64,000 nucleotides of DNA, taken from NCBI GenBank assembly GCA_039707465.1, contig CM077646.1, forward strand, positions 81,802,715 through 81,866,714, given 5' to 3'. The stretch is from Rhabdophis nuchalis (lineage: Eukaryota > Chordata > Lepidosauria > Squamata > Natricidae). The notes beneath the pieces were generated by a model. It searched no databases. It worked only from the letters and a program-made list of their open reading frames with translations, and had not been told where the DNA came from. The position numbers and the translations under genes are program-made. Of the stretch, positions 20,846-59,300 are shown one piece after another. Each line of letters begins with the position of its first letter. Position 1 is the first letter of the stretch.

Positions 20846-23122
20846 ATATTTTTTATTTTTGTTTTATTTTATTTACATTTATATCCCACCCTTCTCCGCA
20901 GAGGACCCAGGGCGGTGCACAGGAAATTTAAAAAACATACAGAGTACAAAATAAATACACAATTTAAAATATAAATTAAACCTATGCTAAAAAACCCAAT
21001 TTTAAAATACCCAATTTAAAACTATTCTAAAAGTCCCCATGGGAGGTTAGGCTAGGCCGGCTTGTTGGAATAAGTATGCCTTTAGACATTGGCGGAAGAG
21101 GCGGAGGTCGGTGATGGTACGTAATTCGGGGGGTAGGTCGTTCCAAAGGGCTGGGCCCGCCACAGAGAAGGCTCTTCCCCTGGGTGTCGCCAGTCGGCAT
21201 TGTCCGGCCGACGGCACCCTGAGGAGGCCCTCTCTGTGGAAGCGTATCGGTCTAAGGGATGTATGGGGCAAGAGGCGGTCTCGCAAATAACTAGGCCCCG
21301 AGCCATGGAGCGCTTTAAAGATGGTCGTCAAGACCTTGAAGCGCACCCAAAAGACCACAGGAAGCCAATGCAGCTCACGCAGGATCGGTGTTATGTGGGA
21401 GCATTTAGTGGCTCCCGTAATCACCCGCGCGGCTGCGTTTTGGACTAACTGTAGCTTTCGAGTGCACCTCAAGGGAAGCCCCATGTAGAGAGCATTACAG
21501 TAGTCGAGTCGGGACGTCACGAGAGCTTAAGTGACTGTGTGGAGGGCAGCCCGGTCCAGTAAGGGGCGCAATTGGCGCATCAGGCGTACCTGATGAAATG
21601 CCCCCCTGGCCACGGCCGCCACATGGTCTTCCATGGACAGCCGGGGATCCAGGAGGACACCCAAATTGCGCGCCCTCTCCACGGGGGCCAGTGTTTCACC
21701 CCCAATGGCCAGAGTTGGAGTAATCTGGCTGAACTGGGGTGCCGGAAACCACAGCCACTCAATCTTGGCAGGGTTGAGCTTGAGTTTGTTACCACCCATC
21801 CAGATCCGTACGGCCTCCAAACACCGGGACAGCACTTCGACGGCATCGTTGGGGTGGTCTGGGGTGGATATGTACAGCTGAGTGTCATCAGCGTACAGAT
21901 GGTACTCCACCCCAAAACCACGGATGATCTCACCCAGCGGCTTCATATATGTGTTGAAAAGGAGGGGCGAGAGGACCGACCCCTGAGAAACCCCACATAC
22001 GAGAGGCCTCAAGGTCGACCTCTGCCCTCCCGTCAACACATATTGCGACCGACCAGAGAGGTAGGATGAGAACCACCGCAGAACGGTGCCTCCCAGCCCC
22101 AACCCCCCCAGTCGGTGCAATAGGATACCATGGTCGATGGTATCAAAAGCCGCTAAGAGGTCTAATAGGACTAGGATAGAGGAATACCCTCTATCCCGCG
22201 CCCTCCAGAGATCATCAACCAACGCGACCAATGCCGTCTCGGTGCTGTGACCGGGTCGGAAGCCGGACTGGCACGGTCTAGATAATCAACTTCCTCCAGG
22301 TGTCACAGGAACTGTTGGGCTATCACACTCTCAACAACCTTCACCAAAAAGTGAAGGTTGGAGACCGGACGATAGTTCTCTAATAATGCCGGGTCCAGGG
22401 ACGGCTTCTTGAGGAGGGGCCTCACTACCGCCTCTTTCAAGACGGCAGGTACGGACCCCTCACTCAAAGATGCGTTGACAATGCCCTGGAGCCAGCCTCG
22501 TGTCGTCTCCCAGGATGCCAGTAGAAGCCAGGAGGGACACGGGTCCAATAAACATGTGGTCGCCCTAAGCTTCCTTGACAACCTGTCCATATCCTCGGTG
22601 TTAACAAACTCAAACTCCTCCCAAGAAGGAACCTCAAGACTAGTCTCGGACAGTCCCACAGGACCACTGGCGATGGAGGGTAGCTCATTCCGAATCCAAG
22701 TGATTTTCTCCTGCAGATAAATCCCAAATTCCTCTGCTCGCCCTTGTAAAGGGGCTTCCCGCGGCCTCTGATGAAGGAGGGAGCGGGTCACCCAAACAGG
22801 GCGGCAGGGCGGTTATCTGCGGATGCAATAAGTGTCACAGTACTCCCGTTTGGCCACCCTAATCGCCACTAAGTAAGCCCTAATATGGGTTCTCACTAGT
22901 GTTCGGTCGGCTTCGGAGCGAGAGGTTCTCCATCTGCTCTCTAGGCGTCTCTTGTGGCGCTTCATCCCCCGAAGCTCCTCAGGGAGCCTGGGTGGTTCGA
23001 CGCCGCAAGAGAGGCCGCAAGGGCGTGACTCGGTCCAAGGCCCCCATGGCCGCACTCAACCATGCGGTCACTAGGTCCTCAGTCGAGTCGCGAGGCAGGG
23101 TCACAGGAACCTCTCCGGAATA
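20846..23122 (-). mobile_element. L2 LINE, 5'-truncated, inactivated
   Basis: Minus-strand copy of the L2 family at 45960-49470, lacking the endonuclease half. Four broken blocks cover the linker and the RT. The block at 21527-22231 holds AFDTIDHGILLHRL, GVSQGSVLSPLLFN (P changed to S in the usual GVPQGS) and YADDTQLYIS. The block at 21047-21520 holds the C-terminal SRLDYCNALYMGLPLRCTRK and GRAFSVAGPALWNDLPPELR. Stops and shifts separate the blocks. The 3' end carries the GCACCGCCCTGGGTCC tail near 20900. Confidence 0.88.
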
Positions 23123-32679: not shown

Positions 32680-34692
32680 CTTCCGGTATCCGGCTCCAGC
32701 GGAGACGGGCGAGCCTAGGGCTCGCTCGCCGCTTTGTTGCCTTTTCTGCCCCCCCAGGGGGGCGAAACTCTCCGGTTACCGGAGGTTTCCCGCAGGGTCG
32801 GCTCAGAGGGAGCGGCCCTCGTCACGGCGGTGGGGAGGGCGCTCCTCTCTGCGACCTAGGAGGAGAGGAACATGCTAGCGGGGGTTTTTTCCTTCCCCAA
32901 CGGCTGTCGGTGCCATTCGCTTTAATGGAGAGGGCTGAACGGAGAGATCGGGCGGATCGCCGAGGCTTCAGCTGCGAGAGAGAGTGAGTTTAAAAGAACA
33001 CCTTTTTTTCCTTGCTGCCAGCCAGGCTGAACGGACTGGGAGGGGGGTGTTTAATTTAAAAAAAAAACCCCTCGGATTTAAGCGGCACGTTAAAATGGCT
33101 TCTCTGCAAAGAGAAAGCGGAAACTTTCACTCCGGACGGTCTTTAACAAGGGAAAGTGGATTGTGACTTTCTGCAACATTGTTTCTAGGTCTGGCTGAGC
33201 TTAAAAAATTTCTTTTTTTTGCTACTCTCTCCCTCTGGCTGCGAGATGGGCGGTGGAAGTGGCTTCACTTTGTCCCTTGCCTGACTATTTCAACTAAGGA
33301 AAATTTCCAGCGTCTCTTTGAAAGCAGGACTCTCTCTGGATTTTTGAAATTTTTTTTCTTTTGATGGATTTGTGACTTCTTCTCTGGAATACCTTCGTTA
33401 TTATTATTTGCTGATTTGGGAAATTGTGTCTCTTTTGGTTTCTGAATGGTTTGCAACTTCACAGCCCTGAACTGAACTGAGCTCCTGGTTTGCCCCACCA
33501 GCCCCACCCGGAAAACGCCATCTTGGTGGCAGTGACTCTAACTTTTAACCATGGCACAAGAAGCAGCACTTGTAAATTTGGAACAAAGGATGGCTTCTCT
33601 TGAAACTTCTATGCAAACTTTGATATTAGAAATAAAGGCCCAGAGGGCTGAAAATAGTACTTTTAAAAAGGAACTATTGGATACCCGGAAGCAAGTGTTG
33701 GAGAATACACAGAAGAATGAAGAATTGGAAGGAGGGCTGGAGGGGGCTAAGGGAGAGATTAAAAATGTTTCTAATGAGGTGGGGGAAATAAATGGGCATG
33801 TGTCTAGGATAGATATGGAAAGAATGACATATTTTTTGAGATTTCAGAATGTTCTTGAGGAATCTGGTGAATGCCTACCTGATCTTATGAGTACAATTTT
33901 AGCAGACTATTTACAAAAACCTAAGGATGAGATCAGGGGGGACATTGACCTAGCCTATAGAATTAATTCTGCATATGCCAGGATGAATGAAGTGCCTAGA
34001 GAGATACATGTGAAATTTGTTAGAAGGTCAACCAGAGAGGAAATCCTGAAATTGCAGAGAGAAAGTCCATTAATTTACCAACTAAAAACGGTCACTATCT
34101 TGAAGCAGATTCCTAGAAAGATTCGAGATGCAAGACGGAAATTTTCCTTCTTGTCTAAAACATTGTTTGATCACGGGATTTGGTTCAAGTGGGTGACACC
34201 CGAAGGGATGCTGGTGTTCTGGGAAGGAGGAAGAGTGAGGATTAAAACAGTTGCTGAGGCGGAAGCCTTTCTTAAAAAACATTCCTCTGCCCTGGGGGAA
34301 GATCCAGGGGGGACGGAGGGGGTCACGGCCCCGCCCGCGGGGGGCCAGGGGGGAGAGAAAGAAGATACAATAGCCAAAAGACTTAGATCAAAAAAATAAC
34401 TTTGCCTTGATTTTTCTTGAACAATTTTGTATAATATTTCTATCCGGACTTTTTGTAAATGTCTGACAGCATGGAAGGGAGAATTTAGGTAAATGTACTT
34501 GCTTTCATCTTGTAGTGGTATGGAAAATGTTTTCTATGTTAACTTTTTTTTAATGTGTATTTTGAGGTCTCGGAAGGTCCGACGACTCTGACGTGAATGC
34601 TCTCAAAATTTCTTTCTAACCATTACCCTATCCTGTTAAAAAATGTAAAACCAATAAAACTTTTTCAATAAAAAAAGAAAAAAAAAAGAAAA
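32680..34692 (+). mobile_element. ORF1-only L1-type element (HAL1-like), copy 1
   Basis: A complete retrotransposition unit of about 2.0 kb with 19-bp target duplications, GAAAAGAAGGACTAGGGGA, at 32661-32679 and 34693-34711. Order: GC-rich 5' leader starting CTTCCGGTATCCGGCTCCAG, one intact ORF1 (33551-34399), a 290-bp 3' UTR with CCAATAAAACTTTTTCAATA, and an A-rich tail. No ORF2, endonuclease or RT is present between ORF1 and the tail. It inserted into a CR1 copy, splitting it. Copy 2 at 54521 has the same junctions, so the missing ORF2 is a property of the family. The likely mobiliser is an autonomous L1 acting in trans (inference). Confidence 0.9.
33551..34399 (+). CDS. L1-type ORF1 protein, intact (282 aa)
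   Basis: RNA-binding chaperone-like protein of L1 elements. ATG in a strong AACCATGG context. Residues about 5-95 are heptad-rich and predicted coiled coil (trimerisation in known ORF1p). Residues about 95-170 match the RRM-like part, with MTYFLRFQNV, DLAYRINSAY and VPREIHVKFVRRSTREEIL corresponding to the LRIxG, HR and PRHIIVKF blocks of L1 ORF1p. Residues about 180-250 match the C-terminal domain (VTILKQIPRKIRDARRKFSF). The tail is Gly/Pro-rich and ends in basic KRLRSKK. No stop or frameshift. It is 269 of 282 residues identical to copy 2; six of the thirteen differences lie in residues 168-179. Confidence 0.9.
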   Translation: MAQEAALVNLEQRMASLETSMQTLILEIKAQRAENSTFKKELLDTRKQVLENTQKNEELEGGLEGAKGEIKNVSNEVGEINGHVSRIDMERMTYFLRFQNVLEESGECLPDLMSTILADYLQKPKDEIRGDIDLAYRINSAYARMNEVPREIHVKFVRRSTREEILKLQRESPLIYQLKTVTILKQIPRKIRDARRKFSFLSKTLFDHGIWFKWVTPEGMLVFWEGGRVRIKTVAEAEAFLKKHSSALGEDPGGTEGVTAPPAGGQGGEKEDTIAKRLRSKK

Positions 34693-46003: not shown

Positions 46004-46414
46004 ATGTATTCGAGGCGTGACCTCCTTTGCCTGCGAGATTCTGCCCTCTCGCAGGCTTGGCCCCCTAGTTTAACTCGGGCCCATCTCGAGGATGGACTTA
46101 TTGTTCCTGAGAGGTGGGCGAAGCGCAAGCTCAGGGGGTTTCTTTTTAATTTTTTAATTCGGATTTTAGGGGGTTCCAGGGAGGAGGGAGGGGATAGTCA
46201 GGTGGGGGGACACCAAATTATAAGGCCGGCCGGCGGAAGTAGAGAAACGGAGGAGGGGGAAGGGGGTTCGTTGCCACTGAGGTATTCTCCATCAATTCGG
46301 TCTTGGGGAGGGGCAGGGGCAGTGGGAGATGGGATGGACATCGGTTGGAGGACCGTGGCCGCTGGTTACAGGCGGTCACGAACTCCGACCTCCCATGCTC
46401 CCATCGCAGACTAG
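46004..46414 (+). pseudogene. N-terminal block of the L2 polyprotein, shifted frame
   Basis: Starts at an ATG with MYSRRDLLCLRDSALSQAWP and SLTRAHLEDGLIVPERWAKR. The YSRxxLLxLRxS opening is the usual N-terminus of L2-type proteins, as I recall it. This frame differs from the downstream endonuclease frame and stops at 46414, so a single-base shift between about 46140 and 46430 probably broke one original ORF. Confidence 0.6.
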
Positions 46415-49266
46415 GTGGGCAAGAACCACAGACCCGGGGCCCTAGGCTGATGCTATGCAACGCCAGGTCCGTGGTGCAAAAAGCCCCCCTCATCCATGAC
46501 CTTGTGTCAGAGGGGGACCCGGACCTGGTAGGTATTATGGAAACCTGGTGGGGCCACGAGGGAGGACATCCCCTCGTAGAAATGTGCCCACCAGGATACC
46601 GAGCCTTCCATCAGCCTAGGGCCCTAGGGAGGGGTGGGGGGGTGGCGATTATGGTTAGGGAAGGTCTTGAGTCAAAGGAGACCACGATCCCTCAGATGAC
46701 CGTGTGCGAGTCCCTCCTTGTGAAGTGGGGCCTAGGGAGGCAGTTGGGCGTGTTAGTTGTATACCTGGCTCCTCGCTATACAACAACAGCCCTGCCCAAG
46801 CTCCTAGAGGTGATAGCCGAGGCGGCGGTGGAGACCCCCAGACTGTTAGTCATGGGGGACTTTAACCTGCCATCAGCAGGCGAAACCTCTGGGTTAGCTC
46901 GGGAGTTCATGGCTTCCATGACAGCCATGGACCTGACCCAAGTAGTTGTAGGCCCTACCCACGAGGGCGGACACACCCTGGATCTAATCTTCGTCTCGGG
47001 ACAGTGGAGTAGTGATCTGGGAATAGGGGATCTAGTCATCACACCCCTGTCATGGACAGATCACGCTCTCCTTCGGCTCGACTTTCCGATCACCGCACCT
47101 CACTGCGGGGAGGCGGAACCGGACATTCCTATATGGTTCCGCCCCACGCTCCTGATGGACCCGATAAGGTTCCAAAGGGAGCTTGGGCCAATTCCTGTGG
47201 ACTTGCCCCGCGACTCGACTGAGGACCTAGTGGCCGCATGGTTAAGTGCGGCCACGGGGGCCTTGGACCGAGTCGCGCCCTTGCGGCCTCTCTTGCGGCG
47301 ACGAACCACCTGGGCTCCTTGGTTTACCGAGGGGCTTAGGGGGATGAAGCGCCACAAGAGACGCCTAGAGAGCAGATGGAGATCTTCTCGCTCCGAAGCC
47401 GACCGAACACTAGTGAGAGACCATATTAGGACTTACTTAGTGGCGATAAGAGTGGCCAAACGTGAGTATTGTGCCACTCTTATTGCATCCGCAGATAACC
47501 GCCCTGCCGCCCTGTTTGGGGTGACCCGCTCCCTCCTTCAACAGAGGCCGCGGGAAGCCCCTTTACAGGGTCAAGCAGAGGAATTTGGGATTTATCTGCA
47601 GGAGAAAATCACTCGGATTCGGAACGAGCTACCCTCCATCGACAGTGGCCCAGTCGAGCGGGCCGAGGCTGTTCTTGTGACACCATCTTGGGAGGAGTTT
47701 GATTTTGTTACCACCGAGGATATGGACAAGTTGTCAAAGAGACTTAGGGCTACCACATGTTTATTGGACCCGTGTCCCTCCTGGCTTGTACTGGCATCCT
47801 GGGAGACGACACGAGGCTGGCTCCAGGGCATTGTCAACGCATCTTTGAGTGAGGGGTCCTTGCCTGCCGTCTTGAAAGAGGCGGTAGTAAGGCCCCTCCT
47901 CAAGAAGCCGTCCCTGGATCCAGCATTATTAGAGAACTATCGTCCCGTCTCCAACCTCCACTTTCTAGTGAAGGTTGTTGAGAGTGTGGTGGCTCAACAG
48001 TTTCCGCGACACTTGGAGGAAGTTGATTATCTAGACCCGCGCCAGTCCGGCTTCCGACCCGGGCACAGCACCAAGACGGCATTGGTCGCGTTGGTTGATG
48101 ATCTCTGGAGGGCACGGGATAGAGGATATTCCTCTATCCTAGTCCTATTAGACCTCTCAGCGGCTTTTGATACCATCGACCATGGTATCCTATTGCGCCG
48201 ACTGGGGGGGTTGGGGCTGGGAGGCACAGTTCTGCGGTGGTTCTCATCCTACCTCTCTGGTCGGTCGCAATATGTGTTGACAGGGGGGCAGAGGTCGGCC
48301 TCGAGACCCCTCATATGTGGGGTTCCTCAGGGGTCGGTCCTCTCGCCCCTCCTATTCAACACATATATGAAGCCGCTGGGTGAGATCATCCGTGGTTTTG
48401 GGGTGGGATATCATCTGTACGCTGATGACACTCAGTTGTACATATCCACCCCAGACCACCCCAACGATGCCGTCGAGGTTATGTCCCGGTGTTTGGAAGC
48501 CGTACGGATCTGGATGGGTGGTAACAAACTCAAGCTCAACCCGTCCAAGACTGAGTGGCAGTGGCTTCCGGCGCCCCGGTTCAGCCAGATTATTCCAACT
48601 CTGGCCATTGGGGGCAAAACACCGGCCCCCGTGGAGAGGGCGCGCAATTTGGGTGTCCTCCTGGATTCCCGGCTGTCTATGGAAGATCATGTGGCAGCCG
48701 TGGCCAGGGGGGCATTTCATCAGGTTCGCCTGATGCGCCAATTGCACCCCTTACTGGACCGGGGTGCCTTACGCACAGTCACTCAAGCACTCGTCACCTC
48801 TCGACTCGACTACTGTAATGCTCTCTACATGGGGCTCCCCTTGAGGTGCACCCGAAAGCTGCAGCTAGTCCAGAACGCAGCCACGCGGGTGATTACGGGA
48901 GCGCCTAGACACTCCCATATAACACCTATCCTGCGCGAGCTGCAGTGGCTTCCTGTGGTCTTTTGGGTGCGCTTCAAGGTTTTAACGACCATCTTTAAAG
49001 CGCTCCATGGCTCGGGGCCTAGTTATATGCGAGACCGCCTCCTGCCCCATACATCCCTCAGACCGATACGCTCCCACAGAGAGGGCCTCCTCAGGGTGCC
49101 GTCGGCTGGACAATGCCGACTGGCGACACCCAGGGGGAGAGCCTTCTCTGTGGCGGGCCCAGCCCTCTGGAACGACTTACCCCCTGAACTCCGCACCATC
49201 TCCGACCTCCGCCTCTTCCGCAAGTGTCTGAAGACACACCTATTTCATCTAGCCGGCCTAGTGTAA
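46303..49266 (+). CDS. L2 endonuclease-reverse transcriptase, long open frame
   Basis: Open for 987 codons, though the first codon is TTG; the first ATG is at residue 50 (MLCNARSVVQKAP). The AP-like endonuclease spans residues about 48-260: NARS, METWW (catalytic Glu), GDFNLPS near 184 and SWTDHALL near 250. The RT follows at about 530-790: NYRPVSNLHFLVKVVES, SGFRPGHSTKTALV, LLDLSAAFDTIDHGIL near 620, GVPQGSVLSPLLFNTYMKPL and YADDTQLYIS near 706, all catalytic residues present. The C-terminus holds SRLDYCNALYMGLPLRCTRK and GRAFSVAGPALWNDLPPELR. AFDTIDH and YADDTQLYIS place it in L2, not CR1. Intact apart from the N-terminal shift. Confidence 0.88.
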   Translation: MGRGRGSGRWDGHRLEDRGRWLQAVTNSDLPCSHRRLGGQEPQTRGPRLMLCNARSVVQKAPLIHDLVSEGDPDLVGIMETWWGHEGGHPLVEMCPPGYRAFHQPRALGRGGGVAIMVREGLESKETTIPQMTVCESLLVKWGLGRQLGVLVVYLAPRYTTTALPKLLEVIAEAAVETPRLLVMGDFNLPSAGETSGLAREFMASMTAMDLTQVVVGPTHEGGHTLDLIFVSGQWSSDLGIGDLVITPLSWTDHALLRLDFPITAPHCGEAEPDIPIWFRPTLLMDPIRFQRELGPIPVDLPRDSTEDLVAAWLSAATGALDRVAPLRPLLRRRTTWAPWFTEGLRGMKRHKRRLESRWRSSRSEADRTLVRDHIRTYLVAIRVAKREYCATLIASADNRPAALFGVTRSLLQQRPREAPLQGQAEEFGIYLQEKITRIRNELPSIDSGPVERAEAVLVTPSWEEFDFVTTEDMDKLSKRLRATTCLLDPCPSWLVLASWETTRGWLQGIVNASLSEGSLPAVLKEAVVRPLLKKPSLDPALLENYRPVSNLHFLVKVVESVVAQQFPRHLEEVDYLDPRQSGFRPGHSTKTALVALVDDLWRARDRGYSSILVLLDLSAAFDTIDHGILLRRLGGLGLGGTVLRWFSSYLSGRSQYVLTGGQRSASRPLICGVPQGSVLSPLLFNTYMKPLGEIIRGFGVGYHLYADDTQLYISTPDHPNDAVEVMSRCLEAVRIWMGGNKLKLNPSKTEWQWLPAPRFSQIIPTLAIGGKTPAPVERARNLGVLLDSRLSMEDHVAAVARGAFHQVRLMRQLHPLLDRGALRTVTQALVTSRLDYCNALYMGLPLRCTRKLQLVQNAATRVITGAPRHSHITPILRELQWLPVVFWVRFKVLTTIFKALHGSGPSYMRDRLLPHTSLRPIRSHREGLLRVPSAGQCRLATPRGRAFSVAGPALWNDLPPELRTISDLRLFRKCLKTHLFHLAGLV

Positions 49267-51696: not shown

Positions 51697-54310
51697 GCAG
51701 TGGAGACCCCCAGACTCTTAGTCATGGGGGGACTTTAATCTGCCATCGGTGGGCGAATCATCCGAGGTAGCTCGGGAGTTCATGGCTTCCATGACGGCCA
51801 TGGACCTGACACAATTAATTCAAGGCCCCACCCACGAGGGTGGACATACACCGGATCTCATCTTCGTCTCTGGCCAGTGGAAAAGTGATCTGATTATAGG
51901 GGATATAGCCATCACACCCTTGTCATGGTCAGACCACTCACTTCTCCGGCTCGACTTTCCAACCGCTACTCCCCTCCGCGGGGAGGCGGAACCTGAGTCA
52001 CCAATCTGGTTCCGCCCCAGGCGCCTGATGGACCCTGATGGGTTCCAGGCGGCGCTTGGGCCACTTCCTGTACCCCTGGCCCGTGCCCCGATGGAGGACC
52101 TCACGGCCGCATGGAATAGTGCGGCCGTGGGGGCCTTGGATCAGGTCGCGCCCTTGCAGCCTCTCTTGCGGCGGCGAGCCACCCTGGCCCCTTGGTTTAC
52201 CGAGGAGCTGAGGGTGATGAAACGCCACAAGAGATGCCTAGAGAGAAGATGGAGGTCTACCCGATCTGAATCTGACCGGACACAGGTAAGAGCCCATTTA
52301 CGGACTTACATTGTGGCGCTGAGAGTGGCCAAACGTCATCATTGTGCCACTCTCATAGCATCCGCAGATAACCGCCCTGCCGCCCTGTTTAGGGTGACCC
52401 GCTCCCTCCTTCAACAGAGGGTGCGGGAAGCCCCGTTACAGGGTAGAGCAGAGGAATTTGTGATTTATCTGCAGGAGAAAATCGCTCAGATACAGAACGA
52501 GTTAGCCCCCATTCATGGCCCAGTGGGTTGCCACGAGGCGGATCTTGTTTGGGAGGAGTTTGACTCCGTTACTTCCGAGGATATGGACAGGCTACATGGG
52601 CGACTGCGAGCCACCACATGTTTATTGGACCCGTGTCCCTCCTGGCTTGTACTGGCATCCTGGGAGGTGACACGAGGCTGGCTCCAAGAGGTTGTCAACG
52701 CTTCTTTGAGGGAGGGTTCCTTGCCTGCCTCCCTTAAAGAGGCCATGGTGAGGCCCCTCCTGAAGAAGCCCTCTTTAGATCCAGCTCTTTTAAACAACTA
52801 TCGTCCCGTCTCCAACCTTCCCTTTTTGGCGAAGGTTGTCGAGAGTGTGGTGGCACAACAGTTTCCCCGTCACCTGGAGGAAGTTGATTATCTAGACCCG
52901 CGCCAGTCTGGCTTTCGGCCCGGGCATAGCACCGAGACGGCATTGGTTGCATTGGTCGATGATCTCTGGAGGGCCAGAGATGGGGGTTGTTCCTCCATCC
53001 TGGTCCTATTAGACCTCTCGGCGGCTTTTGATACCATCGACCATGGTATCCTATTGCACCGGCTGGGGGGGTTGGGGGTGGGAGGCACTGTTTTGCGGTG
53101 GTTCTCCTCCTACCTCTCTGGCCGGTCGCAATTTGTGTTGACAGGGGGGCAGAGGTCGACCTCGAGACCCCTCACATGTGGGGTGCCTCAGGAGTCGGTC
53201 CTCTCGCCCCTCCTGTTCAATACATATATGAAGCTGCTGGGTGAGATCATCCGTGGTTTTGGGGTAGAGTACCATCTCTACGCTGATGATACTCAGCTGT
53301 ATATATCTACCCCAAACCATCCCAACGATGCCGTAGCGGTGATGTGCCAGTGCCTGGAAGCCGTGCGGGTCTGGATGGGAAGTAACGGACTCAAGCTCAA
53401 CCCGACCAAGACCGAGTGGCTGTGGTTTCCGGCTGCCCGGTTCAACCAGCTGTCTCTATCGCTGGCCATAGGGGGCGAACATCTTGCCCCTGTGGATGGG
53501 GCGCGCAACTTGGGTGTCCTCCTGGATTCCCGGCTGTCCATGGAAGATCAAGTGACAGCCGTGGCCAGGAGGGCGTTTTACCAGGTTCGCCTGGTTCGCC
53601 AGTTGCGCCCCCTATTGGACCGGGATGCCTTTCGCACAGTCACTCATGCTCTCGTGACATCCCGACTGGACTATTGTAACTCTCTCTACATGGGGCTCCC
53701 CTTGAGGTGCACCCGGAGGCTGCAGTTGGTCCAGAATGCAGCCGCGCGAGCAATAATGGGTACCACAAGGTACACCCATGTAACACCGCTCTTGCGCGAG
53801 CTGCACTGGCTACCTGTAGTCTTTCGGGTGCGCTTCAAGGTGCTAGTCATCATCTTTAAAGCGCTCCATGGCTCGGGACCTAGCTATCTGCGGGATCGGA
53901 TTCTGCCTCATACTTCCTCACGGCCGATTCGCTCCCACAGAGAGGGACTTCTCCGGGTGCCGTCCACCAGACTTTGTCAGCGGGCGACGCCCAGGGGAAG
54001 GGCTCTCTCTGTGGCGGGCCCTGCCCTCTGGAACGACCTCCCCCCCGATATTAGAACTACCATGGACCTCCGTTCCTTCCGTCTGAAATTGAAAACGCAC
54101 TTTTTCTGCCTGGCCGGCCTAGGGTAGCCTCTTACCACAGTATTATAGGGTTTAGGGTTTTAGTGATTGGTTTTGGGGAATTTTAGCGCAGGGTCTTATT
54201 GTTTAATGTGTTTTTTAACTGTTTTGTATATTTATTGTTTTAATTTTCCCTGTGCACCACTCCGAGTCCTCTTGGGGAGAGGGAGCGGTCTAGAAATTAA
54301 ATATTATTAT
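51697..54310 (+). mobile_element. L2 LINE, 5'-truncated
   Basis: Starts inside the endonuclease domain (GTGGAGACCCCCAGACTCTT, matching 46830 of the longer copy) and runs to the tail GAGAGGGAGCGGTCTAGAAA followed by TATTATTATT. An extra G in the run at 51726-51731 shifts the frame just before the conserved DFNLPS text. It belongs to the GGTCTAGAAAT tail type, unlike the GGGGTATAAAT tail of the 45960 copy. Confidence 0.9.
51749..54127 (+). CDS. L2 reverse transcriptase, open frame of 792 codons (5'-truncated)
   Basis: Open from a GTG inside the endonuclease region to a natural stop. It keeps the SWSDHSLL endonuclease end near residue 60, NYRPVSNLPFLAKVVES, SGFRPGHSTETALV, LLDLSAAFDTIDHGIL near residue 425 and YADDTQLYIS near 510, then SRLDYCNSLYMGLPLRCTRR and ALSVAGPALWNDLPPDIR. 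One key change: the usual GVPQGSVLSPLLFN reads GVPQESVLSPLLFN, replacing a conserved glycine in the RT. With the catalytic half of the endonuclease missing, this copy cannot be autonomous. Confidence 0.85.
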   Translation: MGESSEVAREFMASMTAMDLTQLIQGPTHEGGHTPDLIFVSGQWKSDLIIGDIAITPLSWSDHSLLRLDFPTATPLRGEAEPESPIWFRPRRLMDPDGFQAALGPLPVPLARAPMEDLTAAWNSAAVGALDQVAPLQPLLRRRATLAPWFTEELRVMKRHKRCLERRWRSTRSESDRTQVRAHLRTYIVALRVAKRHHCATLIASADNRPAALFRVTRSLLQQRVREAPLQGRAEEFVIYLQEKIAQIQNELAPIHGPVGCHEADLVWEEFDSVTSEDMDRLHGRLRATTCLLDPCPSWLVLASWEVTRGWLQEVVNASLREGSLPASLKEAMVRPLLKKPSLDPALLNNYRPVSNLPFLAKVVESVVAQQFPRHLEEVDYLDPRQSGFRPGHSTETALVALVDDLWRARDGGCSSILVLLDLSAAFDTIDHGILLHRLGGLGVGGTVLRWFSSYLSGRSQFVLTGGQRSTSRPLTCGVPQESVLSPLLFNTYMKLLGEIIRGFGVEYHLYADDTQLYISTPNHPNDAVAVMCQCLEAVRVWMGSNGLKLNPTKTEWLWFPAARFNQLSLSLAIGGEHLAPVDGARNLGVLLDSRLSMEDQVTAVARRAFYQVRLVRQLRPLLDRDAFRTVTHALVTSRLDYCNSLYMGLPLRCTRRLQLVQNAAARAIMGTTRYTHVTPLLRELHWLPVVFRVRFKVLVIIFKALHGSGPSYLRDRILPHTSSRPIRSHREGLLRVPSTRLCQRATPRGRALSVAGPALWNDLPPDIRTTMDLRSFRLKLKTHFFCLAGLG

Positions 54311-54520: not shown

Positions 54521-56450
54521 TGGCTTCCGGTTCCGGCTCCTGCGGCGACGGGCGAGCCTAGCGCTCGCTCGCCGCTTTGTTTCTTCTTCTGCCCTCCAAC
54601 GGGGGCGAGACTCCTCTTGTTTGAGGGTCTCCCGTAGGGCCGGCTCGTCGGGGGGCGCGCCCCCCACGGCGGTGGAGGAAGCGGCTCCCGGCGCGGCTCA
54701 GGTGAGGGAGAACATGCTAGCGGGGGGTTTTCCCTTCGTCCAAGGAAGACGGCGCCATTCACAATTATGAGGAGGGCTGATCGGCTCAGTCAGAAGGACT
54801 CCCGAGGCTTCAGCTGCGAGGAGAGAGTGAGTCTTTAAAAAACCCCTCGGATTTAAGCGGCACGTTAAAATGGCTTCTCTGCAAAGGGAAAGCAGAAACT
54901 TTCACTCCGGACGGTCTCTAACAAGGGAAAGTGGAATGTGACTTTTTGCAACATTGTTTCTAGGTCTGGCTGAGTTTAAAAAAATTCTTTTTTTGCTACT
55001 CTCTCCCTCTGGCTGAGATGGGCGGTGGAAGTGGCTTCTCTTTGTCCCTGCCTGATTATTTCAACTAAGGAAAATTTCCAGCGTCTCTTTGAAAGCAGGA
55101 CTCTCTCTGGATTTTTGGGGGAAAAAATTTCTTGATGGATTTGTGATTTCTTCTTTGGAATACCTTCGTTATTACTATTTGCTGACTTGGGAAATTGTGT
55201 CTCTTTTGGTTTCTGAATTGTTTGCAACTTCACGGCCCTGAACTGAACTGAGCTCCTGATCTGCCCCACCAGCCCCACCCGGAAAACGCCATCTTGGTGG
55301 CAGTGACTCTAACTTTTAACCATGGCACAAGAAGCAGCACTTGTAAATTTGGAACAAAGGATGGCTTCTCTTGAAACCTCTATGCAGACTTTGATATCAG
55401 AAATAAAGGCCCAGAGGGCTGAAAATAGTACTTTCAAAAAGGAACTATTGGATACCCGGAAGCAAGTGTTGGAGAATACACAGAAGAATGAAGAATTGGA
55501 AGGAGGGTTGGAGGGGGCTAAGGGAGAGATTAAAAATGTTTCTAATGAGGTGGGGGAAATAAATGGGCGTGTGTCTAGGATAGATATGGAAAGAATGACA
55601 TATTTTTTGAGATTTCAGAATGTTCTTGAGGATTCTGGTGAATGCCTGCCTGATCTTATGAGTACAATTTTAGCAGACTATTTACAAAAACCTAAGGATG
55701 AGATCAGGGGGGACATTGACCTAGCCTATAGAATTAACTCTGCATATGCCAGGATGAATGAAGTGCCTAGAGAGATACATGTGAAATTTGTTAGAAGGTC
55801 AACCAGAGAGGAAATCCTGAAAGCGCAGAGAGAGAAACCTTTAACTTATCATCGAGAAACGGTCACTATCTTGAAGCAGATCCCTAGAAAAATTAGAGAT
55901 TCAAGAAGGAAATTTTCCTTCTTGTCTAAAACCTTGTTTGATCACGGGATTTGGTTCAAGTGGATGACACCTGAAGGGATGCTGGTGTTCTGGGAAGGAG
56001 GAAGAGTGAGGATTAAAACAGTTGCTGAGGCGGAAGCCTTTCTTAAAAAACATTCCTCTGCCCTGGGGGAAGATCCAGGGGGGGCGGAGGGGGGCACGGC
56101 TCCGCCTGCGGGGGGCCAGGGAGGAGAGAAAGAAGATACAATAGCCAAAAGACTTAGATCAAAAAAATAACTTTGCCTTGATTTTTTCCTGAACAATTTT
56201 GCATAATATTTCTATCCGGACTTTTTGTAAATGTCTGACAGCATGGAAGGGAGAATTTAGGTAAATGTACTTGCTTTCAACTTGTAGTGGTATGGAAAAT
56301 GTTTTCTATGTTAACTTTTTTAATGTGTATTTTGAGGTCTCGGAAGGTCCGATGACTCTGACGTGAATGCTCTCAAAATTTCTTTGTAACCATTACCTTA
56401 TCCTGTTAAAAAATGTAAAACCAATAAAACTTTTTCAATATAAAAAAAAC
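54521..56450 (+). mobile_element. ORF1-only L1-type element (HAL1-like), copy 2
   Basis: Same architecture as the copy at 32680: leader starting near CTTCCGGTTCCGGCTCCTGC, intact ORF1 (55322-56170), 3' UTR with CCAATAAAACTTTTTCAATA and an A-rich tail. Target duplications of 15 bp, AACAACATCAATATC, lie at 54506-54520 and 56451-56465. The leader lacks about 70 bp found in copy 1 (around 32990-33065) and the first 300 bp are more diverged than the rest. No ORF2. Confidence 0.92.
55322..56170 (+). CDS. L1-type ORF1 protein, intact (282 aa)
   Basis: Second intact ORF1 of the family, with the same AACCATGG start, coiled coil (residues about 5-95), RRM-like blocks (MTYFLRFQNV, AYRINSAYARMNEVPREI) and C-terminal domain. 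It differs from copy 1 at 13 residues. Residues 168-179 read AQREKPLTYHRE here against LQRESPLIYQLK there. The REKPLTY text is closer to the REK pattern common in L1 ORF1p. Basic tail KRLRSKK is unchanged. Uninterrupted reading frames in two separate insertions suggest the protein was still being made when the copies moved (inference). Confidence 0.9.
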   Translation: MAQEAALVNLEQRMASLETSMQTLISEIKAQRAENSTFKKELLDTRKQVLENTQKNEELEGGLEGAKGEIKNVSNEVGEINGRVSRIDMERMTYFLRFQNVLEDSGECLPDLMSTILADYLQKPKDEIRGDIDLAYRINSAYARMNEVPREIHVKFVRRSTREEILKAQREKPLTYHRETVTILKQIPRKIRDSRRKFSFLSKTLFDHGIWFKWMTPEGMLVFWEGGRVRIKTVAEAEAFLKKHSSALGEDPGGAEGGTAPPAGGQGGEKEDTIAKRLRSKK

Positions 56451-56465
56451 AACAACATCAATATC

Positions 56466-57285
56466 AATATTGCAGGTCTTTTGGAAGGACTCAGTACCTG
56501 GATAAAAATGCTAAATCTATATAGCTGGCTGACTGTGCAACCAATCATAACAATCCTCAAGACTTTCCCCCAGATCAGTCAAGGGGTTTTGAGTAGCAAA
56601 CTGTAAAGTATACCAATATTTTCCCAGTCTATCACCCTGTCCCAACATCTGATAGAGGTGTTCTGGTGGTCAGCAAGACGAAATTCTAAGAAATCGATGG
56701 TTTTACATGTCTCAACCTATCAGTTGAGTTTGATATTACTACATAATAGATATGTCCTATAACATAAATTTACATATTGGGTTATTTCAGGACAATTATA
56801 AAATATTAGTAAAATTTCTAGTGAATTGTAAAACCCCATAAAAACAACATGCACAGATTTCTTATCCAAATACCTGTAGTATATTTTGTTTTCTTTTTCT
56901 GTTTATTTCTGCTGTCAAAATTCCAATAGAAAGTAAGAACTCCAACTGCTCTAGATGTATGTATTTAATATTAAAAACAAAAAAATGGATAACCTTGCTG
57001 ATAGATCTTATTTTTAAAAGAATGTAACAAAAGCAGTTGTGAATTATTGAAGAATAGTATAATGGTATACAATTATACGTGACCGAGATGTTACTCTCCT
57101 TGGTAGTCCATGTAAAACAACACCTCTTCTATTTGTCTTGAATATTGTCATTAACAGGCAACTTTATTTTAATCTCTAAAGTAATCCTGCATGGGATGCT
57201 TCTATACTTAAAATAATTGTCTCATCTTGTTTAACCCTGAAATCCCTCTTTGCCAAACTCTCAAGCTAATAATCTTTGGAAATTA
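56466..57285. other. Nothing recognised
   Basis: AT-rich intronic DNA. Confidence 0.5.
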
Positions 57286-57632
57286 TCAGTCATCCAGGTC
57301 ATGATTGTCCCAATGGTGCTCTTTCAGGAGGCAACTGGACTTTGTATTTTCTTTGAAAACAAGGAAGAAAGTCCAGTTGCCTTCTGAAAAAGTACCTTTG
57401 GGACAACCATGACCTGGATGTCTGAGAATCTCCATAGTCTTTTAGCTATTCACTTTGGGATGAACATTCTTCAAATGGTGTGGGAGTATGAACAGATTTC
57501 CAGAAAAATTGCAGACTACAGAAACCATTTGCACTTCAGTTTGAAATGCAGAAAACACAGGCTCATCCCCAACAGCCTGCGCCTGTCTTCAACAGTGAAG
57601 GAACATAGGACAGAAAACATCCTGCAACCAAG
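57286..57632 (+). mobile_element. Penelope-like element, left relic
   Basis: Opens with an inverted repeat: arms 57290-57343 and 57368-57421 pair at about 50 of 56 positions (AAAGTCCAGTTGCC and ACCATGACCTGGATG). Behind it a frame (about 57424-57630) reads ISRKIADYRNHLHFSLKCRK followed by HRLIPNSLRLSSTVKEHRTE, like the N-terminal part of Penelope/Neptune polyproteins, as I recall it. The RT and GIY-YIG endonuclease are absent. The repeat GGGACAACCATGACCTGGAT is a terminal sequence I associate with vertebrate Penelope copies. Confidence 0.55.
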
Positions 57633-58110: not shown

Positions 58111-58178
58111 ATTCACCAGCGGAGGTAACATATATATATATGTTACATTTTTGAGCTGATCAATAAATAAGTGAGGGA

Positions 58179-58225
58179 GACTAATATAGATCTATTTCAA
58201 GCTTATTAGCTCTCATCAGCTGGCC
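58179..58225 (-). ncRNA. Hammerhead ribozyme, inverted copy, partly decayed
   Basis: On the minus strand: GGCCAG, core CUGAUGA, stem II GAGCUAAUAAGCUU, GAAA, short stem III UAGAUCUAU, then A at the cleavage position, giving AUA, still an NUH triplet. The stem I partner reads UUAGUC instead of CUGGUC, so stem I is weak. Likely slow or inactive. Confidence 0.7.
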
Positions 58226-58523
58226 ATACCCTTTACTGGGATTCGAATCGGGGCTGTATTGCATGCCAGGCAAGGAGCCTAGCACTTTAGCCAAGCTGGC
58301 TCTCTCTCTTTTAATTTATTGATTAGCTCATAAAACTAACACACATATCTAAAAGAATTACACAATATAATTCTTGGCTTGCTGTCTAGATGGTCTCTGG
58401 TGATGAGCCGAAAGGCAGGAAAGGAAACAGTATGTCTCCTCCCTCAATTGGGGCCTATTAACAGGTTGTTGTGAAACAATTACCTATACTAATATACCCT
58501 GTCTCAGCTGATGCAATAGGGGA

Positions 58524-58595
58524 GCCGGCTTGGCTAAAGTGCTAGGCTCCTTGCCTGGCATGCAATACAGCCCCGGTTCGAATCCCAGTAAAGGG
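58524..58595 (+). promoter_or_regulatory. tRNA-like Pol III promoter, direct copy 1
   Basis: A box TGGCTAAAGTGC at 58531-58542 and B box GGTTCGAATCC at 58575-58585, 44 nt apart start to start as in intronless tRNAs. It ends just before the hammerhead. Confidence 0.8.
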
Positions 58596-58598
58596 TAT

Positions 58599-58645
58599 GG
58601 CCAGCTGATGATAGCTAATAAGCTTGAAATAGATCTATCCTGGTC
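58599..58645 (+). ncRNA. Hammerhead ribozyme, type I, direct copy 1
   Basis: Stem I GGCCAG/CUGGUC (6 bp with one G-U), core CUGAUGA, stem II with AAUA loop, GAAA, stem III AUA/UAU closed by GAUC, cleavage triplet AUC with C at 58639. The only change from copy 2 is U for G as the first base of stem II (UAGCU), which turns a G-U closing pair into U-U. Confidence 0.85.
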
Positions 58646-58863
58646 TCTAATTTAATTTATTGATCAGCTCATAAAACTAACACACATATCTAAAAAATTA
58701 CACAACATAATTCTTGGCTTGCTGTCTAGATGGTCTCTGGTGATGAGCCGAAAGGCAGGAAAGGAAACAGTATGTCTCCTCCCTCAATTGGGGCCTATTA
58801 ACAGGTTGTTGTGAAACAATTACCTATACTAATATACCCTGTCTCAGCTGATGCAATAGGGGA

Positions 58864-58935
58864 GCCGGCTTGGCTAAAGTGCTAGGCTCCTTGCCTGGCA
58901 TGCAATACAGCCCCGGTTCGAATCCCAGTAAAGGG
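58864..58935 (+). promoter_or_regulatory. tRNA-like Pol III promoter, direct copy 2
   Basis: A box 58871-58882, perfect-consensus B box GGTTCGAATCC 58915-58925. At exact tRNA positions 28-31/39-42 a 4-bp anticodon stem (TTGC/GCAA) closes the 7-nt loop CTGGCAT with T33 and anticodon GGC. D and acceptor stems are decayed, so this is tRNA-derived, not a functional tRNA. Confidence 0.82.
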
Positions 58936-58938
58936 TAT

Positions 58939-58985
58939 GGCCAGCTGATGAGAGCTAATAAGCTTGAAATAGATCTATCCTGGTC
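58939..58985 (+). ncRNA. Hammerhead ribozyme, type I, direct copy 2 (all core bases present)
   Basis: A self-cleaving RNA motif with every conserved position: stem I GGCCAG pairs with CUGGUC; core C3-A9 is CUGAUGA; stem II GAGCU pairs with AGCUU around an AAUA loop; G12-A15.1 is GAAA; stem III is AUA/UAU (A15.1 to U16.1) closed by GAUC; the site is AUC, cleaving after 58979. The very short stem III is typical of the minimal hammerheads of Penelope-like elements and retrozymes. Fold derived by hand; no kinetics implied. Confidence 0.9.
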
Positions 58986-59165
58986 TCTCTCTAATTTAAT
59001 TTATTGATCAGCTCATAAAACTAACACACATATCTAAAAAATTACACAACATAATTCTTGGCTTGCTGTCTAGATGGTCTCTGGTGATGAGCCGAAAGGC
59101 AGGAAAGGAAACAGTATGTCTCCTCCCTCAATTGGGGCCTATTAACAGGTTGTTATGAAACAATT

Positions 59166-59300
59166 ACCTATATATACATATATACATATACTGTATATTG
59201 TATGTATTTGTGCTTGTCTCCCTCTCTCCCCCCACCTCTCTGTCTCTCTTTACCCCTCCCTCCCTTTCTTCTCCCCCCATCTATCAATTAAAATTTACAT
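59166..59300. repeat. (TATACA)n and pyrimidine-rich simple sequence
   Basis: TATATACATATATACATATA followed by CT-rich sequence (59214-59282). It terminates the hammerhead array. Confidence 0.8.

Follow-up and report, generated by a model that had tools for sequence, protein, structure and literature searches.

What kind of element joins a tRNA-like head to a hammerhead ribozyme in a snake genome, and by what machinery have its copies spread? The question is raised by a repeat at positions 58131–59172 of a 64-kb stretch of the Rhabdophis nuchalis genome (the window, meaning the whole stretch analysed; C4:81802715–81866714 of the searched assembly, which comprises 1.92 Gb in 348 contigs). Based on a comparison of its copies, we favour, with reasonable rather than high confidence, the reading that the repeat is a non-autonomous, tRNA-headed retrozyme lacking long terminal repeats (a non-LTR retrozyme), which is probably mobilized in trans by the machinery of Penelope-like elements (PLEs).

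Tandem Repeats Finder resolves the repeat into 2.5 direct copies of a 340-bp unit with 97% matches (58302–59172), and a 172-bp inverted partial copy (58131–58302) meets this direct array head to head at 58302/58303. Unit positions (u) are numbered from the predicted cleavage site, u1 being 58640, and bit scores refer to a model, R1, that was built with the window copy 58933–58991 included, such that the 89.2 bits of the latter is a self-inclusive score. The features are as follows:

58131–58302, minus strand: inverted partial copy, 5'-truncated (block u223 to u53), its outward 3' end running leftward into a short TA repeat
58177–58231, minus strand: hammerhead of the inverted copy, with a damaged stem I (76.2 bits with R1)
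58239–58249, minus strand: B box of the inverted copy, one mismatch to GGTTCGAATCC (pattern search)
58303–59172, plus strand: direct array of ~2.5 units, which terminates (3') at unit position 189 and adjoins AT-rich sequence
58531–58541, plus strand: A-box-like TGGCTAAAGTG, copy 1 (read from the sequence)
58575–58585, plus strand: B box GGTTCGAATCC, copy 1, exact (pattern search)
58593–58647, plus strand: hammerhead copy 1, its stem II mismatched (U-U) at the base; predicted cleavage after 58639 (84.5 bits with R1)
58640–58979, plus strand: predicted self-cleaved monomer of 340 nt, spanning consecutive predicted cleavage sites
58680–58686, plus strand: AC-rich stretch ACACACA, unit positions 41–47, where dispersed copies elsewhere most often have their 3' end; internal to the window array
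58871–58881, plus strand: A-box-like TGGCTAAAGTG, copy 2 (read from the sequence)
58915–58925, plus strand: B box GGTTCGAATCC, copy 2, exact (pattern search)
58933–58991, plus strand: type I hammerhead copy 2, core bases complete, with predicted cleavage after C17 at 58979 (89.2 bits with R1)

As judged from its sequence, the unit, of ~340–350 bp, is composed of a tRNA-like head with A- and B-box-like sites, a type I hammerhead and a body of ~220 nt. In both complete window heads, TGGCTAAAGTG starts 44 nt upstream of GGTTCGAATCC, exactly as a preliminary description of this DNA had it, the A box carrying one mismatch to its consensus (taken here as TRGCNNARYNG), and CUGAUGA starts 30 nt downstream of the start of the B box. 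No open reading frame (ORF) of at least 90 aa overlaps the window repeat; the unit thus encodes neither a reverse transcriptase (RT) nor a GIY-YIG endonuclease. The predicted monomer has a folding energy of −98.2 kcal/mol (z −2.39).

A hammerhead is defined by the core CUGANGA/GAA/A15.1-U16.1/H17 and three helices, stem III being closed by a loop in type I. All of these elements, CUGAUGA, stem II, GAA, stem III, C17 and stem I, are present in the copy at 58933–58991, the stems of which are GGCCAG/CUGGUC (I), GAGCU/AGCUU with a basal G-U pair (II) and AUA/UAU (III). A strict descriptor, in which every core base is prescribed apart from position 7 and the minimum lengths are 5 bp for stem I and 3 bp each for stems II and III, has its sole match in the window at 58945, upholding the earlier claim that all core bases are in place in the second direct copy; on 5767 single-stranded random sequences of 64 kb from a first-order Markov model, it matches nowhere. 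Both the copy at 58593–58647 and the inverted copy at 58177–58231 fail this descriptor. The preliminary description had also proposed a search with the Rfam model Hammerhead_1, the lack of a match above threshold to count against it, and on this point the outcome formally does so: at gathering thresholds, Rfam yields no hammerhead in the window or in 12 other loci. In a relaxed search (E up to 10, 1.2 kb), the best hammerhead family for all three window copies is Hammerhead_HH9 (RF02275), with 29.8, 23.9 and 15.2 bits (E of 3.9e-5, 0.003 and 1.9) against a gathering score of 52; across the six copies scored, HH9 is likewise the highest-ranking Rfam hammerhead family (15.2–34.0 bits), the top copy, from L022, reaching 34.0 bits with the cutoff at 52. 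Folding energy was dropped as evidence for the hammerhead, as the z-scores of six copies lie between −1.3 and 0.2 relative to shuffles. It might be supposed, then, that the fold is a product of chance or decay that has no role, given that two of the three window copies are damaged, that the Rfam scores fall below the cutoff and that single-sequence folding is no better than in shuffled sequence. The empty random sequences argue otherwise, as does the comparison of copies across the genome.

Searching the assembly with a 463-base query gave at least 96 matches on C1–C5, C8 and C17 (40 scored of 3354 candidates), and 34 stretches were fetched: 31 dispersed loci and three pieces of a single array on C1. 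In these and the window, nhmmer with the head, hammerhead and tail found 210 matches, 163 of them nearly full length, of which 75 lie in the array pieces. Groups were set by hand from the hammerhead letters; after two array pieces and gapped rows had been dropped, the 145 rows kept comprise groups A (111), B (18), C (12) and D (4). The tRNA-like head and the hammerhead occur together in all four groups across this one genome; the fusion put forward in the preliminary description therefore recurs, and the outcome it had entertained as fatal, that the two parts never meet elsewhere, is not what this genome holds. The interpretation given there is thus supported. The median likeness is 66% between units of groups A and C, and 96% between loci for units lacking the C mark. 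A ranking of the groups by age was dropped because A copies from different loci are 96% alike (median), yet between two arrays, C units reach 97%. The C1 array (L033–L035, within 218.587–218.641 Mb) fills three fetched stretches, 25.9 kb in all, with units of 342–347 bp, neither end of the array lying within them; it has 75 hammerheads, each with a B box, and 70 of these are identical over 67 nt. Group C forms short tandem arrays of 342–346-bp units at L016:59–1312 and L040:2256–3167, which are ~97% alike mutually and ~66% alike to group A, and in which the hammerhead is compensated.

The 210 nhmmer rows contain 191 copies of usable length and 77 distinct hammerheads. Over 14 pairs in these 77, standard pairs fill 96.7% of 1071 cells, and both sides have changed at six of the 14 pairs, spread over all three helices, giving 36 such cells, where shuffles give 5.9. 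Covariation scores 0.146, as against 0.087 for shuffled and 0.006–0.055 for slid alignments, the shuffle control being one that leaves the relatedness of the copies in place. Because different groups have changed in different helices, we take there to have been several separate compensatory events: in stem I, GCCAG/CUGGU has become GCUAG/CUAGU in group B or GCCAA/UUGGU in group D; in stem II, GAGCU/AGCUC has become GGGCU/AGCCC and, in a single copy, GGACU/AGUCC; and in stem III, AUA..UAU has become AUG..CAU in group C. Of the 75 hammerheads that could be parsed, 59 have the core CTGATGA, 10 depart from it solely at position 7 and the remaining six carry other core changes; GAA is retained in 63 and lost in 12; H17 is C, A or U in every one; and 52 pass all core and stem tests. 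An extra 3-bp outer stem is fully paired in 66 of 75 (an uncontrolled count that allows G-U pairs). Moreover, groups A and C agree in their majority letters at 46 of 53 hammerhead positions (87%) and at 181 of 286 in the remainder of the unit (63%). Comparison within the same genome thus decides what the single-sequence Rfam score could not, and the covariation outweighs the missing Rfam match. By this comparative evidence, the type I hammerhead is real, its core varies mostly at the permissive position 7, and self-cleavage is predicted. With compensatory changes in all three helices, mostly permissive core variation and a hammerhead better kept between groups A and C than its surroundings, an accidental or decayed fold is very improbable.

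A second motif, GGUGAUGAGCCGAAAGGC..GGAAACAGUAUGUC, is present at 58418–58448 and 58758–58788 of the window and is similar to a decayed hammerhead or to a conserved GNRA hairpin; near it, GATGGTCTCT and TGTCTCCTCCCTT are well conserved between groups A and C. A second hammerhead per unit (GGUGAUGAGCCGAAAGGC..GAAAC, at ~58418 and ~58758) was considered and dropped, as its C3 is altered and the core is lost in the group C version.

Upstream of the hammerhead, a B box with at most two mismatches lies within 60 nt in 95 of the 103 dispersed hammerheads found by core pattern (81 with at most one mismatch) and in 75 of 75 array hammerheads, as compared with 1.2% of random window positions. Allowing at most one mismatch, it is found in 105/108, 11/16, 2/11 and 3/3 of the copies scored in groups A, B, C and D, respectively. 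The A box of group A deviates from the consensus at one position in 93 of 97 copies scored and at two in the other four. In one group B copy (L018:972–1041), the head, with 35.2 bits, exceeds the Rfam tRNA cutoff of 29, and it continues into a hammerhead at 1037–1091. From these sequences, we infer that the head is tRNA-derived, and that group A has lost the cloverleaf and kept the promoter-like boxes. ARAGORN finds no tRNA in the window.

The manner of insertion is most clearly seen at the ends of the copies. Our analysis covered 33 blocks of at least 400 nt at 31 places, the window included (L024 fell below the length cut). Their 3' ends lie at u43–53 in 23 cases, at u184–197 in five (among them the window, at u189) and elsewhere in five; placing 28 of 33 ends in two zones has a binomial chance of 3e-27, albeit for zones that were chosen post hoc, once the ends were known. 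At the main 3' end, the sequence ACTAACACACA gives way to repeats of the CA, TA or CATA type; many tails of groups A, B and D, along with several of group C, keep ...AACACACA or AACACA there. By a strict pattern, a microsatellite occupies the 40-nt 3' flank of 25 of 33 blocks, compared with 0.23% of random window stretches; the flank of the window copy is AT-rich and fails this pattern. No A tail is found at the ends of the copies, which have CA/TA repeats instead. The 5' ends are variable; 17 of 33 blocks have, within 40 bp of the 5' end, an inverted stretch of this repeat that meets them head to head. The fixed insertion ends, the assignment of the inverted partner to the same insertion and the PLE-like neighbours described below all go beyond the preliminary description.

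These ends bear directly on whether the repeat could instead be a tandem satellite, spread by duplication at the DNA level, in which the hammerhead is a fossil; its parallel would be the squamate satellites derived from short interspersed nuclear elements (SINEs). Tandem units in the window and the long C1 array, with 70 of its 75 hammerheads identical over 67 nt, are what such a satellite would show, and SINE-derived satellites are common in squamates (PMC10702118). A satellite does not account, however, for insertions that are dispersed, favour certain 3' ends and have head-to-head partners, nor for a hammerhead kept by paired changes between subfamilies whose units are ~66% alike; we therefore consider a satellite origin unlikely.

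The same ends are pertinent to a further possibility, that of an ordinary tRNA-derived SINE moved by a long interspersed nuclear element (LINE) of the L2, CR1 or Bov-B type; its tail would then be of the CA type and its hammerhead incidental. The tRNA-derived head is in keeping with this, as are the sense-orientation CA repeats after the 3' end, which could be a self-made tail, and the abundance of L2/CR1-like ORFs in the window, as judged by eye. On the other hand, the end is internal to the unit and the counted blocks are longer than one unit, a second end zone exists at u184–197, and head-to-head pairs are seen in 17 of 33 blocks; additionally, no LINE with the same 3' end was seen, though no search was aimed at one, and one locus, L010, contains a PLE hybrid. 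An ordinary SINE is thus also improbable, if not negligibly so.

Part of the evidence that points to PLEs as the partner comes from L010. There, a minus-strand retrozyme has at its 5' end a 33-nt sense-strand retrozyme patch (u191–223), which is followed by an open frame; read at the sequence level, this is a hybrid insertion with a retrozyme on one side and a PLE on the other. The neighbouring frame (L045:2–706) has a GIY-YIG match below the cutoff (E 0.0008; 20.1 bits versus 22.6). Of its 36 homologs, one combines RVT_1, PF26215 and GIY-YIG, and four more combine RVT_1 and PF26215, which we take, in line with PMC11167929, to be PLE architecture. The nearest named hosts are squamates, namely, the snake Ahaetulla prasina (88% identity over 47% of the query) and the agamid Phrynocephalus (56–75%). 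PLE beside retrozymes was also seen at L044, which was not counted as a hybrid since a different repeat lies at the junction. Within the genome itself, scoring 150 of 1267 candidates for PF01541 yielded a single match at E ≤ 0.001, a scarcity that probably reflects a PLE domain scoring near or below the cutoff.

More generally, PLE coding matches are present in seven of the 31 loci. A 140-nt PLE 3' end is found in 18 of these loci, with 38 occurrences in total, and not at all in the 64-kb window, that single window being the entire background control. Nineteen of the 38 reach the end of the query, a far-end class that is simply the end of the 140-nt query, 14 stop at query positions 95–115 and five stop elsewhere. 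A repeat hexamer lies within 30 nt of 27 of the 38 (by a looser, uncontrolled pattern), and within 60 bp of one another, the PLE 3' ends form seven head-to-head pairs and no tail-to-tail pair. At L011:568–879 and 1170–1451, for instance, inverted PLE 3' ends stand head to head with TA-rich repeats outside, and many PLE remnants near retrozymes are like such bare tails. We name a PLE as the partner mainly because this insertion architecture is shared; nearness alone would be insufficient. A precedent is available in PAc, a PLE of Anolis that cuts and extends both strands of AT-rich targets, and whose RT starts inside the RNA, at an AC-rich stem loop, two start sites bounding a tail of 30–40 bp (PMC11167929). 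The PLE-type footprints in the snake copies, and it is footprints only that are compared, match those of PAc in the AC-rich internal end, the head-to-head twins and the two alternative ends.

Taken together, the sequences suggest the use of RNA polymerase III (Pol III), self-cleavage, circular RNA and PLE-driven copying. Transcription would start at the tRNA-like head and read through tandem units, and the hammerhead would cut the transcript into ~340-nt monomers, the ends of which would suit a host tRNA ligase for closure into circles; for other animal retrozymes, ligation to circles by tRNA ligase has been shown in vitro (PMC7229834). A PLE RT/GIY-YIG endonuclease would then bind the retrozyme RNA and cut both strands of AT-rich DNA; from each strand, copying would begin within the RNA, at its AC-rich spot, perhaps with slippage there that gives CA repeats. 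Copying on two strands would leave two 5'-truncated copies, head to head, and copies exceeding one unit would derive from a circular or uncleaved multimeric template.

A number of observations weigh against this reading. To the post hoc choice of end zones, the lesions in core and GAA, the silence of Rfam at its thresholds, the far-end class set by the query and the one-window control may be added the sampling of the loci, which are the best matches to the 463-nt query and thus biased upward in length and intactness. In the head, a perfect A box is found in none of the 97 group A copies, all 11 group C B boxes have one or two mismatches (nine have two), and Rfam reports a tRNA above cutoff in just one of 12 other loci searched, and none in the window. 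The sense strand lacks a T4 run in 72 of 72 array units and in 34 of 41 dispersed units; as evidence for Pol III read-through, this missing terminator was rejected, the chance expectation of 58% per unit rendering it non-significant. At the insertions, the outward end of the partner falls in one of the two zones in only nine of the 17 head-to-head cases. The CA tracts are in sense orientation, CA occurring in 19 of 33 flanks and TG in two, and in L009, L015, L029 and L031, sense-strand CA is found at both outward ends of the head-to-head insertion. As a single pre-existing CA tract would not give sense CA at both ends, the CA was perhaps made during copying, and the notion that all CA repeats are pre-existing targets was dropped on these grounds, which slightly lowers the odds that we give to the favoured reading; they may have arisen through slippage at the AC-rich start or through primer annealing there, and a SINE-like tail is possible. 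Moreover, PLE neighbours could result from a shared taste in targets. Finally, PAc hammerhead mutants are unaffected in insertion in vitro (PMC11167929); cleavage is, therefore, perhaps not needed for insertion.

The surroundings of the repeat within the window contain further repetitive sequence. To the left of the array, 57253–57458 is an inverted repeat of 102 bp with 2 bp between its arms, which are 78% complementary. Long LINE-like frames with an L2/CR1-type endonuclease and RT, assigned by eye, lie at 46243–49266, 51722–54127 and 21047–22812, the longest being 1007 aa, and related copies occur elsewhere in the window. Two very similar frames of 285 aa, LINE-1 ORF1-like by eye, are found 21.8 kb apart at 33542–34399 and 55313–56170.

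The preliminary description was apt in naming the SINEs of Schistosoma and animal retrozymes as the nearest designs. Metazoan non-LTR retrozymes (from axolotl, mussel and coral) have a type I hammerhead in low-GC tandem units of 150–450 bp, are multicopy and lack LTRs, a primer-binding site (PBS) and a polypurine tract (PPT) (PMC7229834). The snake element shares with them the type I hammerhead in non-coding tandem units of this size, as well as its multicopy, dispersed nature; no LTR-like pair was seen in the fetched loci, PBS and PPT not having been searched for. Their description, in its available passages, names no genomic promoter and no reptile, whereas the snake element adds a tRNA-derived head and a PLE-like insertion pattern. 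Sm-alpha of Schistosoma is a SINE-like element derived from tRNA-Gln that carries a hammerhead and exceeds 10,000 copies (PMC2770079). It and Sj-alpha share the design of tRNA-derived head plus hammerhead; they differ in phylum and tRNA source, and the same source, as available, describes no PLE insertion signature. Anolis Poseidon PAc, a PLE with a hammerhead in its pseudo-LTRs (pLTRs; PMC11167929), has in common tandem units, a hammerhead and, as judged from the footprints, an internal AC-rich RT start, both-strand extension and two alternative ends, its AT-rich targets perhaps being shared as well; its hammerhead is of the minimal PLE kind, whereas that of the snake element has three full stems, accompanied by a tRNA-like head in a non-coding unit.

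Squamates also have tRNA-derived heads and tandem forms in the Squam1–3 SINEs and satellites (PMC10702118, PMC7983390). Squam3 measures 218–239 nt (267–271 for Squam3B3, in two geckos) and has a CORE domain and an L2-type end, and squamate sSat units are 70–290 nt, as opposed to ~340–350 nt with a hammerhead in the snake; the separation from Squam and sSat is by description only, and an origin from Squam3 would be conjecture. Newt hammerhead satellite DNA and Cynops PolIII/TAN (~360 bp) are again tandem units of a few hundred bp (PMC6155905, PMC10702118), the former having a hammerhead and the latter a tRNA-like part; they are described separately, and the likeness is one of description. Lastly, HH9 (RF02275), an amniote intronic hammerhead, is the nearest Rfam family, below the gathering score of 52 and with no other hammerhead scored as a yardstick; the snake element differs from it in being a mobile family, and the likeness is one of score. 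Intronic hammerheads have been proposed to be domesticated from retroelements (PMC6155905), and the nearness of HH9 fits this proposal without proving it.

In the titles and abstract openings of open-licence PMC papers, we find no tRNA-headed retrozyme from squamates; the field's founding papers, from 1998, 2010 and 2014, lie outside this scope and may list reptile hammerheads in repeats. Hammerhead, ribozyme and Anolis appear together, among open-licence PMC papers, only in that on PAc (PMC11167929), and exact patterns of the repeat have no match in viral and prokaryote contigs or in paper texts.

The mover of animal retrozymes is unsettled, PLEs and Terminons being regarded as likely candidates and the repeats having no motif that indicates a partner (PMC7761336). 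Since the genomic footprints reported here match those of PAc, the one PLE reported active in vitro and also from a squamate (PMC11167929), the idea of a PLE partner is testable with an existing protein. A bolder version, in which a vertebrate retroelement RNA is made by Pol III, cuts itself to ~340-nt circles, is copied by a PLE from both strands and is the source of the amniote intronic HH9-type hammerheads, is put forward tentatively, as a possibility that we would not call likely. The design of Sm-alpha, tRNA head plus hammerhead, is now found in a vertebrate, and a mobile reptile hammerhead provides a comparison for the conserved intronic ones.

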